A stretch of DNA of 64,000 nucleotides from Pedobacter yonginensis (GTDB lineage Bacteria; Bacteroidota; Bacteroidia; Sphingobacteriales; Sphingobacteriaceae). Under the pieces are notes generated by a model. It was not told the origin of the DNA, searched no databases, and saw nothing but the letters and a program-made list of their open reading frames with translations. Every line of letters begins with the position of its first letter. Position 1 is the stretch's first letter. Location: the NCBI RefSeq assembly GCF_003173595.1, contig NZ_QGNZ01000001.1, positions 1,240,001 to 1,304,000 of the forward strand, written 5' to 3'. Shown piece after piece: positions 2,166 to 5,273 of this stretch. Position numbers and translations under genes: made by a program.

Positions 2166-3263
2166 TTAGTAAACCTTTATCATAAATACATAATCTTGCA
2201 GTTTTTCTATCTGCTTCGTACGCTTTAATCCCGACAATAAACTTTTTTTGTTCGAAACCAATTTCTGACCCAATGAATCTTGCGGAATGGCCCGCATGGC
2301 TTCTAAAATATATTTTGATTTGATGGCGAAGGCTGCACCTTCCGTTTGATCTGGTTTACCGCTAATTACGCCAACCAAATTACCATTATTATCTAAAAGT
2401 GGGCCACCGCTATTTCCTGGATTAACTGAAATGGCTACCTGGTATTGCGTGGTATCTCCCACAAATCCATTCTTCGAACTCACATAGCCTTCGCCCAATA
2501 CAGCATCATCTTTTGGATAACCCAAGGTATAAACGTTTTCGCCTATGCTGCTACTGTTCCTTTTAATGGTATAAGGCAATGAAGAAAGATTAGAAAAGTT
2601 TCTATCGCTGATTTTAAGGATTGCCATATCATACTGACTGTCCGTATAAACAGCCTTAACTTTAAATGATTCTCCTTTACTGTTTTGAACATAAAGTGAA
2701 TCAGCTCCATTAATCACGTGTAAATTGGTTAAGATATAACCATTTGTTGAAATGGCGAAGCCTGTACCACCATAGCGACCCTGATTTGCAGCCTTATTTG
2801 GAAGCGATGAGTTAGCCGTTTTGCGAATGTCTCTAATTAAAGTGTTTTGAGTTTTAATAGCGTTGTTAACTTGGTAACTCAACTGAATCACTTTTTCGGC
2901 TTGTTGGCTATTGTGTTGTATAGAATATATTGATACCAACGAAAGCACAATGAATGAAGCGGCTACCGCAATGGCAGATTTGTGTTTACGCCACAGCTGA
3001 ACGATTTTTGACGGATGAGGTTTTAATGTTGCGGCCAAAGCATCCACGTCAAGTTCCGAATGGATTTTATCCATTTGTTCTCGCAAATGTAATTGTTCGG
3101 CGTATTGTTCCATCTTATGTAAAAACACCTTATGCGAAACCACCTTATGATCAACTGTTGCATCCTTAGTGCGCAATTGTTCAAAAGCCTCAGTTTCCTG
3201 TGGAGTTAACTTACCTAATAGATAATCTTCAATAATTGCATCTAACTCTAAATCGTTCCTCAT
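2166..3263 (-). CDS. Membrane-anchored trypsin-like serine protease with anti-sigma-like N-terminus
   Basis: A 365-residue protein. Residues 1-90 are cytoplasmic, helical and charged. One transmembrane segment lies at about 96-116, then a linker, then a periplasmic S1C/HtrA-like trypsin domain at about 165-330. The catalytic triad is complete: H182 (NLHV), D212 (YDMAIL), S285 (GNSGGP). There is no PDZ domain. The ATG at 3263 is preferred to an upstream in-frame start because it follows the sigma-factor stop by 8 bp instead of overlapping it. By position and topology it is the likely partner/anti-sigma regulator of that sigma factor. The N-terminus has no recognisable zinc motif, so the anti-sigma role is inference. 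Confidence 0.8.
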   Translation of the reverse strand: MRNDLELDAIIEDYLLGKLTPQETEAFEQLRTKDATVDHKVVSHKVFLHKMEQYAEQLHLREQMDKIHSELDVDALAATLKPHPSKIVQLWRKHKSAIAVAASFIVLSLVSIYSIQHNSQQAEKVIQLSYQVNNAIKTQNTLIRDIRKTANSSLPNKAANQGRYGGTGFAISTNGYILTNLHVINGADSLYVQNSKGESFKVKAVYTDSQYDMAILKISDRNFSNLSSLPYTIKRNSSSIGENVYTLGYPKDDAVLGEGYVSSKNGFVGDTTQYQVAISVNPGNSGGPLLDNNGNLVGVISGKPDQTEGAAFAIKSKYILEAMRAIPQDSLGQKLVSNKKSLLSGLKRTKQIEKLQDYVFMIKVY

Positions 3264-3271
3264 TTCAATTA

Positions 3272-3838
3272 TTATGGTTGAAAAAATATTTTCTTTAAAC
3301 GTTGCAGGCATTTATACTTCTGCGTTTTTGCATTATCTGTATTGGTGTAACCAAACTTCTCGCAAATATCCTGCATGGATAAATTGTGGATATAAAAATC
3401 CTGAATAATGGTTTTGCAAGGTTCACCAAGATGTTCGAGTGCGTGTTGCATTTTAACAAATTGAAGATCACGTTCTTCATGGTGCTCAACATCATCCTCA
3501 ACAACAAGTACATCCTCATAATCGGTTATATTGCCAGCCTTTCTGCTATTTTGAGTTAATTTCTTAAGCCAAATCCGTCGACAAACCGAATAAATATAAG
3601 TTTTTAACTTACTGCTGAGTTCAAAATTCCCTTCCTTAATTTTGTTGTATAAAATTATAATGGCTTCCTGATAAACATCTTTTGCATCATCTTCATCGCC
3701 ATTATTATTGAGGATAAATTGCAAAACCATCGCAAAATATGCCTTATATAACTTGTTAAGGGTGTCTTCGGAGTTATTTAGAATACCTAAAATAACCTCT
3801 CTATCTGTTGGAACTGAACTCTTTAAACTGTTATTCAC
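3272..3838 (-). CDS. ECF-type RNA polymerase sigma factor
   Basis: A 188-residue sigma-70-family protein. Region 2 is at about residues 25-95 (DAKDVYQEAIIILY, then LKTYIYSVCRRIWLKKL). Region 4 is at about 130-188 (MQDICEKFGYTNTDNAKTQ, a helix-turn-helix). Regions 1 and 3 are absent, as in ECF sigmas. Translation starts at GTG; an ATG just upstream runs into a stop after one codon. Two copies of the GGGTTACY...GTATTAA motif lie upstream on the same strand. The proximal one would start transcription at or past the GTG, so the distal one (3937-3908) is the more useful promoter. Autoregulation is inferred. Confidence 0.9.
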   Translation of the reverse strand: MNNSLKSSVPTDREVILGILNNSEDTLNKLYKAYFAMVLQFILNNNGDEDDAKDVYQEAIIILYNKIKEGNFELSSKLKTYIYSVCRRIWLKKLTQNSRKAGNITDYEDVLVVEDDVEHHEERDLQFVKMQHALEHLGEPCKTIIQDFYIHNLSMQDICEKFGYTNTDNAKTQKYKCLQRLKKIFFQP

Positions 3839-3841
3839 TAG

Positions 3842-3870
3842 TTAATACATTTTTCGATAAATAGTAACCC
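3842..3870 (-). promoter_or_regulatory. Putative ECF promoter, proximal copy upstream of the sigma gene
   Basis: On the minus strand GGGTTACT (3870-3863), 14 nt, then GTATTAA (3848-3842). It is only 4 bp from the GTG start, so it may act as a binding site or give a leaderless or truncated message rather than the main transcript. Confidence 0.5.
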
Positions 3871-3907
3871 AATATTAGACAAAAATATTTAGAGCTACTA
3901 GAATTGG

Positions 3908-3937
3908 TTAATACCAGTACACTTTAAACGGTAACCC
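3908..3937 (-). promoter_or_regulatory. Putative ECF promoter, distal copy upstream of the sigma gene
   Basis: On the minus strand GGGTTACC (3937-3930), 15 nt, then GTATTAA (3914-3908). It shares both halves with the elements before the three mini-lipoprotein genes, with a spacer one base longer. It would give a sigma mRNA with a leader of roughly 60 nt. Confidence 0.6.
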
Positions 3938-3979
3938 AAAAAAGAAAATTAAAATATTTTTAATTTTTTTGTAAAAAAC

Positions 3980-4008
3980 GGGTTACCTTTTTATCTTTGC
4001 GGCATTAA
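3980..4008 (+). promoter_or_regulatory. Putative ECF promoter of mini-lipoprotein 1
   Basis: GGGTTACC (3980-3987), 14 nt, GCATTAA (4002-4008), 35 bp before the ATG. An overlapping TATCTTTG (3992-3999) also matches the housekeeping -7 box, so dual control is possible for this copy only. Confidence 0.65.
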
Positions 4009-4043
4009 TGACAGAAATTAATTACTAAATAAAAAAATAAAAC

Positions 4044-4262
4044 ATGAAAAATTCATTCAAATTAGGCTTTTTAGCTTTAGCTTTATCTTTATCAGTTGTT
4101 GCTTGTAATTCAGAAAAAAAAGCTGAAGGTGCTGATACATCTGTAACTGATTCTTCAACTATCGTTACTGATACAAACAAAGTTGATACTGTTGTTAAAG
4201 ATTCTACAGTAAAAGATACTTCTGTTAAAGTAACTACAGAAAAAACTGAAGTTAAAAACTAG
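4044..4262 (+). CDS. Mini-lipoprotein 1 (ECF-regulon paralog)
   Basis: A 72-residue protein. It has a signal peptide (KNSFKLGFLALALSLSV) and a lipobox VVAC with the lipidated cysteine at 21. The rest is a low-complexity hydrophilic tail rich in Thr, Asp, Lys and Val (repeating KDST/KDTS units) and is probably disordered in the periplasm or at the outer membrane. No enzymatic domain is visible. It is nearly identical to the next gene and shares its leader with the gene at 5073. The shared GGGTTACC promoter element links it to the neighbouring ECF sigma factor; an envelope-stress role is inferred from that alone. Confidence 0.8.
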   Translation: MKNSFKLGFLALALSLSVVACNSEKKAEGADTSVTDSSTIVTDTNKVDTVVKDSTVKDTSVKVTTEKTEVKN

Positions 4263-4280
4263 TTTTAATTATCTCATACA

Positions 4281-4314
4281 AAAGGCCTTGGAAATATTTT
4301 CAAGGCCTTTTTAT
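4281..4314 (+). terminator. Terminator of mini-lipoprotein 1
   Basis: Perfect stem AAAGGCCTTG/CAAGGCCTTT with a 10-nt loop followed by a T-rich tract, 19 bp after the stop codon. Confidence 0.8.
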
Positions 4315-4331
4315 TTATATTTTATTTTTTT

Positions 4332-4360
4332 GGGTTACCTTTTTATAATTTGGGTATTAA
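4332..4360 (+). promoter_or_regulatory. Putative ECF promoter of mini-lipoprotein 2
   Basis: GGGTTACC (4332-4339), 14 nt, GTATTAA (4354-4360), 38 bp before the ATG at 4399. There is no clean TAnnTTTG box here, so the bipartite element is the better promoter candidate. Confidence 0.65.
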
Positions 4361-4398
4361 CCATTGAAATTAATTAATTACTTAAAAAAAATTCGAAA

Positions 4399-4617
4399 AT
4401 GAAAAATGCATTCAAATTAGGCTTTTTAGCTTTAGCTTTATCTTTATCAGTTGTTGCTTGTAACTCAGAAAAAAAAGCTGATGGCGCTGATACTACTTTA
4501 ACTGATTCTTCAGCTATCGTTACTGATACAAACAAAGTTGATACAATCGTTAAAGATTCTACAGTAAAAGATACTACTGTAAAAGTAACTACAGAAAAAA
4601 CTGAAGTTAAAAACTAA
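4399..4617 (+). CDS. Mini-lipoprotein 2 (ECF-regulon paralog)
   Basis: A 72-residue near-duplicate of the preceding gene. The leader and lipobox (SVVAC) are the same, and the Thr/Asp/Lys tail differs at only a handful of positions. It is a monocistronic unit with its own GGGTTACC element and its own terminator, so the duplication copied the entire transcription unit. The function is unknown. The tail composition suggests an extended, flexible lipid-anchored peptide. Confidence 0.8.
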   Translation: MKNAFKLGFLALALSLSVVACNSEKKADGADTTLTDSSAIVTDTNKVDTIVKDSTVKDTTVKVTTEKTEVKN

Positions 4618-4635
4618 TTTTAGATTAACTTATAT

Positions 4636-4669
4636 AAAAAGGCTTTGGATTTCATCCAAAGCCTTTTTT
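4636..4669 (+). terminator. Terminator of mini-lipoprotein 2
   Basis: A 14-bp stem (AAAAAGGCTTTGGA/TCCAAAGCCTTTTT) with a 5-nt loop and T-run, 18 bp after the stop codon. Confidence 0.8.
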
Positions 4670-5000
4670 GTTTTTATCAACTGCTAATTTTGGAGAATGA
4701 TCCGGTATATCAAAGCGATTAGCACCACAGAGGAAGCAAAAGCATTACTCATTCCATTATTATATTTTCCTCCCAACAGATTTCTGGAAAACATATAACT
4801 CACCTGAGTTCGTTTAAACCATTAAGGGAGTTAATTATCGTTTGCATCAACGAATATCAATTACGATTTTAAAAAATCTTTTTTGCGTGTAAATTTCGCT
4901 CCTTAATTCTTATACATTCCGATTTTTGGGTAGTTAGACCTTAGATTTTAATCCCAGAAATTTATTTTTTCGATAAAAGAACCTTTCTTTCGAAAAACAT
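4670..5000. other. Gene-poor spacer between lipoprotein genes 2 and 3
   Basis: About 330 bp without a convincing gene. A 33-codon open frame (4697-4798, beginning MIRYIKAIS) has gene-like codon use but no recognisable family, and could be the remnant of a displaced gene. The remainder is AT-rich with no repeat or hairpin that I can support. Confidence 0.35.
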
Positions 5001-5029
5001 GGGTTACCTTTTTATATTTTTCGTATAAA
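5001..5029 (+). promoter_or_regulatory. Putative ECF promoter of mini-lipoprotein 3
   Basis: GGGTTACC (5001-5008), 14 nt, GTATAAA (5023-5029), 43 bp before the ATG at 5073. It is the same bipartite element as the other copies. Confidence 0.65.
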
Positions 5030-5072: not shown

Positions 5073-5273
5073 ATGAAAAATGCATTCAAATTAGGCTTTT
5101 TAGCTTTAGCTTTATCTTTATCGGTAGCTGCTTGTAACTCAGAGAAAAAAGATGGTGCGGCAGATTCTACTACAGTTGACACAACTGTTGTTGATACTAC
5201 AGTTAAAGATACCATGATGAAAGACACCATGATGAAAGACACTATGATGAAAGACACAACTTCAAAAATGTAG
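5073..5273 (+). CDS. Mini-lipoprotein 3 with MMKDT repeats
   Basis: A 66-residue protein with the same leader as its two paralogs and lipobox SVAAC (Cys21). Its tail differs: a Thr/Asp/Val stretch, then three tandem MMKDT units encoded by a near-perfect 15-bp repeat at 5211-5255. Methionine-rich tails can bind copper or scavenge oxidants in other proteins, but here that is only a thought. The gene is a single transcription unit bounded by the GGGTTACC element and a terminator. Confidence 0.75.
   Translation: MKNAFKLGFLALALSLSVAACNSEKKDGAADSTTVDTTVVDTTVKDTMMKDTMMKDTMMKDTTSKM
5211..5255 (+). repeat. Three 15-bp in-frame tandem repeats
   Basis: Units ACCATGATGAAAGAC, the same again, and ACTATGATGAAAGAC encode DTMMK repeats inside mini-lipoprotein 3. 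Unit number can change without shifting the frame. Confidence 0.85.

Follow-up and report, generated by a model that had tools for sequence, protein, structure and literature searches.

A conserved ECF-type promoter motif associates a sigma factor operon with small lipoprotein genes in Pedobacter yonginensis

Pedobacter is a soil bacterium, and in the genome of P. yonginensis the gene for an ECF sigma factor is accompanied by repeated copies of one bipartite sequence. Are these copies promoters read by that sigma factor, and which genes would it then control? In the 64 kb stretch of DNA that we analysed (hereafter the window), the pattern GGGTTACY-N14/15-GYATWAA has exactly five matches, against none expected from 100 shuffles, and all of them lie at the positions and on the strands reported in an initial annotation of this DNA. 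The spacer of 14 or 15 nt given there was counted after the additional Y, and therefore equals 15 or 16 nt between GGGTTAC and GYATWAA, the longer spacer occurring only at 3908–3937. The distances of 35–43 bp to the lipoprotein ATG codons were likewise recovered when measured from the −10 box (table 1).

We consider it highly probable that the product of the sigma gene at 3272–3838 recognises the five sites as promoters, and that this sigma factor autoregulates its own operon, drives the mini-lipoprotein genes together with a gene for a DUF4349 lipoprotein, has an RseA/DegS-like partner and is expressed from a leaderless P2 transcript. The sequence evidence for the promoters and the regulon is strong, and it is presented below.

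Table 1. Positions of the genes, candidate promoters and terminators of the sigma factor locus within the window
Feature	Position	Strand	Details
Probable anti-sigma factor fused to DegS-like serine protease	2166–3311	−	Pfam Trypsin_2 1e-24; NF052375 anti-sigma 5e-4. Protein layout: anti-sigma-like cytoplasmic helices about 20–95; TM about 111–129; periplasmic helix; HtrA/trypsin 178–345; conserved C-terminal tail
ECF sigma-70 factor, 188 aa, GTG start	3272–3838	−	TIGR02937 2.3e-21; Pfam Sigma70_r2 2.8e-8
P2, candidate sigma-proximal promoter, GGGTTAC-N15-GTATTAA	3842–3870	−	3 nt from −10 end to GTG
P1, candidate second sigma promoter, GGGTTAC-N16-GTATTAA	3908–3937	−	69 nt upstream of GTG
Candidate promoter of mini-lipoprotein A, GGGTTAC-N15-GCATTAA	3980–4008	+	35 nt upstream of ATG
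Mini-lipoprotein A, 72 aa, lipobox SVVAC, mature part T/D/K/V-rich	4044–4262	+	NF050142 PG1828_fam_lipo 43.6 bits
Intrinsic terminator 3' of lipoprotein A	4280–4311	+	
Candidate promoter of mini-lipoprotein B, GGGTTAC-N15-GTATTAA	4332–4360	+	38 nt upstream of ATG
Mini-lipoprotein B, 72 aa, close paralogue of A	4399–4617	+	NF050142 44.5 bits
Intrinsic terminator 3' of lipoprotein B	4636–4668	+	
Candidate promoter of mini-lipoprotein C, GGGTTAC-N15-GTATAAA	5001–5029	+	43 nt upstream of ATG
Mini-lipoprotein C, 66 aa, KDTMM repeats	5073–5273	+	NF050142 45.8 bits

The scan of the whole genome (4.37 Mb) proposed in the initial annotation was made by pattern searches, with the reversed pattern as control, and GGGTTACN{15,16}GNATNAA gave nine matches against three for the control. 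These nine consist of the five window sites, one site before the gene for a DUF4349 lipoprotein (contig C11) and three matches within coding sequence, in genes for an EamA-like transporter, a POT-like peptide transporter and a TonB-receptor-like protein, which we rejected as promoters. A search that allowed two mismatches returned only noise, with 35 matches against 52 in its control. Across 61 Pedobacter genomes there were 348 matches versus 66 in the control, and at least two in every genome.

The strict form of the motif (GGGTTAC-N15/16-GTAT[T/A]A) was found directly upstream of the ECF sigma gene in all 111 distinct upstream regions, which come from 19 genera. When each genus was represented by one genome, the −35 box was invariant (2.0 bits per base) and the −10 box reached 1.95 bits, compared with 0.78 bits for the upstream flank. 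Of the 201 genomes in the family, 186 have an orthologue of the sigma factor at E ≤ 1e-25, almost without exception as a single copy, and the motif also precedes most of the more distant orthologues (43–56% identity) of other families. Still more distant homologues (L128–L136) have neither the motif at the sigma gene nor the protease fusion, and so fall outside the group. Within the family, the strict motif occurred in 14 of 14 sigma-positive genomes and in two of 15 sigma-negative ones (P about 2e-6), a comparison in which the genomes are related, so that the counts are not independent events, and in which the sigma-negative set takes in small or incomplete genomes. Both of the sigma-negative genomes with a match are incomplete assemblies, and one of the two matches lies within a coding gene. 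Matches located within ftsW in several genomes (L191, L193 and L194) reflect coding conservation and were discarded as promoters.

This conservation across genera and families supports the ECF-type promoter geometry proposed at the outset. Together with the co-occurrence of motif and sigma gene, it also backs the association between the two, the autoregulation and the small-lipoprotein output, and from both we infer that transcription from these sites depends on this sigma factor.

The sigma factor itself scored 76 bits against the TIGR02937 sigma70-ECF model (cut-off 42.9), and of the Pfam profiles that for region 2 was above its cut-off and that for region 4 below. With regions 2 and 4 only and about 190 aa, it has the layout of the ECF class, and the autoregulated bipartite promoter with near-fixed spacer, another feature of the class, is seen at the sequence level in every one of the 111 regions. 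Its nearest named orthologue is that of P. fastidiosus, with 97% identity.

The initial annotation had read both minus-strand sites as promoters of the sigma gene. Both sites are indeed there, but P2 does not have the position of an ordinary promoter with a leader, as it ends 3 nt before GTG 3838. The gap of 3–4 nt between −10 box and start codon is found in nearly all loci, and the GTG is almost invariant. An earlier start of the protein is impossible, because a TAA within the P2 −10 box is in frame with the GTG, directly upstream. ECF promoters start transcription some 5–8 nt past the −10 box, and with the gap observed the 5' end would therefore fall at the start codon. Judging from this spacing, the sigma mRNA made from P2 probably begins at the GTG or one to two bases from it, and is leaderless. 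P1 was found by a positional scan in 46 of 79 named Pedobacter loci and in none of the other genera examined. P2 is the ancestral site and, since P1 is seen only in Pedobacter, the two are not equivalent. At one locus the gap between −10 box and GTG is exceptionally long (18 nt), which corresponds to a short leader. In another, from genus g5, TAG replaces the usual GTG, so the sigma start must differ there; its sister genome has GTG.

Could the conserved sequence be something other than promoters of this sigma factor? GGGTTACC is nearly palindromic (GGTWACC) and might be the operator of a separate DNA-binding regulator, in which case the second box would be coincidental or a housekeeping element. 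The near-palindrome GGTTACC/GGTAACC is consistent with such an operator, and so is the C that follows GGGTTAC at nearly all lipoprotein sites. At the conserved site of the sigma gene, however, this position is free (T, A or C), indicating that the palindrome is not what is being kept. In addition, GTAT[T/A]A, the second box, is conserved to the same degree and lies at a near-fixed distance of 15–16 nt, which is the geometry of a promoter, and no other regulator gene was found to be constant at the locus. An operator is thus highly improbable, and we dropped the idea on account of the variable outer C. That the motif merely reflects relatedness, or a recent duplication of the lipoprotein cassette, is scarcely credible: the three lipoprotein genes of the window are closely related paralogues whose upstream DNA is similar, but over the 19 genera and in other families the spacers and flanks diverge whereas both boxes stay fixed, and the boxes are common to genes as unrelated as those for the sigma factor and the DUF4349 lipoprotein. 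The motif might also be an ECF promoter read mainly by another ECF sigma factor, with the local sigma gene as just one target, given that ECF specificities can overlap and that the P. yonginensis genome has further ECF sigma genes, two of them at 28–31% identity to the local one. We regard this as very unlikely, because the motif follows the orthologues of the local sigma factor across families, stands directly before the sigma gene in all of the distinct regions analysed and is nearly absent where the gene is missing, with no match in a one-contig genome of 4.3 Mb that lacks it.

A narrower doubt concerns P2, which might be non-productive, its transcripts starting within the gene and being non-coding, so that the protein would be made only from P1 or from a housekeeping promoter. 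The 3–4 nt before the start codon leave no room for a leader, and P1 does exist in Pedobacter. Nevertheless, P1 is missing from 33 of the 79 named Pedobacter loci and unseen outside the genus, whereas P2 is retained, as is its distance to the GTG. Gaps of 10–13 nt are frequent in other families; they amount to a very short leader and indicate that P2 can be productive. Bacteroidota, moreover, lack Shine-Dalgarno sequences, and 5.5% of the mRNAs examined in Flavobacterium psychrophilum are leaderless (PMC9723704). An inactive P2 is therefore rather unlikely, and we favour P2 as the source of a leaderless, translated sigma mRNA.

The gene order downstream of the sigma gene is conserved, and the product of the next gene (table 1) has a helical N-terminus and a single, strongly hydrophobic TM helix. 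Its listed ORF overlaps the 3' end of the sigma gene, and comparison with orthologues makes Met17 (MRNDLEL...) the likelier true start. The catalytic triad H198/D228/S301 is present in 56 of 56 orthologues. In the AlphaFold model (mean pLDDT 83.9) a helical N-terminal domain, a long helix containing the membrane segment and a protease domain are predicted. The periplasmic part takes the form of an HtrA protease domain in this model, and among solved structures the best Foldseek matches of that domain were to DegS delta-PDZ (E about 1e-12). For a PDZ domain, no Pfam family matched at E ≤ 0.01, and the matches to HtrA-family profiles end at the protease domain. The N-terminal part is probably an anti-sigma domain, as suggested by anti-sigma and zf-HC2 profile matches, which are weak and limited to a minority of the orthologues, by gene order and by the predicted helices and topology. 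As a whole, the protein resembles a fusion of E. coli RseA with a DegS that lacks its PDZ domain. Its C-terminal tail (YVFMVKVY-like) forms a strand in the model. Beyond the end of the operon, likewise on the minus strand, lie genes for a cold-shock protein (973–1170) and a 1-Cys-type peroxiredoxin (1376–2041), and no copy of the motif was found before either of them.

These components suggest how the circuit may work. The sigma factor would positively autoregulate the operon that encodes it and the membrane-bound anti-sigma/protease, whose cytoplasmic part would hold the sigma factor. The protease would be activated by an envelope signal perceived in the periplasm, and would then cut the anti-sigma part of its own chain or of a neighbouring one, thereby releasing the sigma factor. 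Once free, it would act on its own operon, giving positive feedback together with fresh anti-sigma for the reset, and on the genes for the mini-lipoproteins and at least one distal DUF4349-domain lipoprotein, with a presumed role in envelope homeostasis.

This arrangement resembles the sigma-E (RpoE)/RseA/DegS system of Escherichia coli, which also combines an ECF sigma factor, an autoregulated promoter, a membrane anti-sigma factor, a periplasmic protease of the DegS family and an output directed to the envelope (PMC8103513). In Pedobacter, however, the putative anti-sigma factor and the DegS-like protease are a single protein, the promoter reads GGGTTAC/GTATTAA, the output found consists of small lipoproteins, and no equivalent of RseB was seen adjoining the operon. 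The DegS-family protease domain and its triad are shared, whereas a separate DegS whose PDZ domain senses the C-termini of outer-membrane proteins is absent, and for this reason we classify the locus as a variant and not as a member of the sigma-E pathway. The Das/Dma system of Bacteroides thetaiotaomicron, in which an ECF21 sigma factor and a dual membrane-spanning anti-sigma factor control OMVs, likewise combines an ECF sigma factor of the Bacteroidota with an anti-sigma factor that faces the envelope, and governs the behaviour of the outer membrane, but the Dma domains span from the outer membrane to the cytosol, while the Pedobacter protein has an HtrA protease domain (PMC13088901). The SM6 promoters of Flavobacterium are also an ECF class of Bacteroidota with the sigma/anti-sigma operon among its own targets, but they have a CGT −10 box and T9SS targets (PMC9723704).

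We found no description of the motif, of this sigma factor in Pedobacter or of trypsin-fused anti-sigma factors in the literature, mostly openly readable papers, and within that literature the locus is new in working like the sigma-E pathway yet differing in its defining features. The promoter classes of Bacteroidota ECF sigma factors are poorly known, and anti-sigma partners have been recognised for few of these factors, class I anti-sigma domains being associated with only 6% of them (PMC7406223). The present locus offers a promoter code that is conserved and unusually sharp, a regulon that is small and defined, and a candidate for an anti-sigma factor and protease in one chain; with these, an envelope-response pathway of Pedobacter and its relatives can be tested directly. 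It is also a clean case in which to study how leaderless GUG messages are translated, and it may encode a regulator of PG1828-type lipoproteins. The envelope-response circuit seems to be common to a whole branch of the Bacteroidota, with one invariant promoter sequence. More tentatively, it might be a clade-wide regulon in which the anti-sigma factor is its own site-1 protease without PDZ sensing, the sigma factor is made from a leaderless GUG mRNA transcribed from its own promoter, and the main output, the PG1828-like mini-lipoproteins, may signal the state of lipoprotein traffic back to the protease.

Where a divergent motif copy is followed by an ORF within 80 nt (179 cases), the ORF always encodes a mini-lipoprotein. 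The three lipoproteins of the window resemble the PG1828 family (NCBIfam NF050142) in size, signal peptide and type of lipobox, but they score 43.6–45.8 bits, under the curated cut-off of 50, a value exceeded by two of the seven motif-bearing lipoproteins compared from other genera or families (53.2 and 65.5 bits). The KDTMM repeats of lipoprotein C are in tandem, and similar short repeats (TVKDT, VDSAAAK) differ between genera. At the three lipoprotein promoters GGGTTAC is followed by an additional CTTTT, which is absent at the sigma promoter and may tune their strength.

The initial annotation described the regulon as local. Sites are indeed present at the locus, but a purely local regulon is contradicted by the DUF4349 lipoprotein gene in trans and by lipoprotein genes located elsewhere in other genera; the predicted regulon is small, and not purely local. 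At five loci, from one other genus (g16) and from other families, lipoprotein genes distant from the sigma locus still carry the motif, a natural test indicating that the motif belongs to the gene and not to the place. Of 25 distinct loci with a gene for the DUF4349 lipoprotein (PF14257), 13 have the motif no more than 400 nt away, among them all five that were sampled in Pedobacter, and about half of these genes show no obvious site. In three Pedobacter genomes (at 731–760 in locus L195, and in L092 and L104) the motif lies about 20 nt before a DUF2459 gene (PF09601), a possible subclade-specific member of the regulon. In two genomes of another family it stands just before a small AMPK1_CBM/CBM48-like gene, which suggests a different extra target there.
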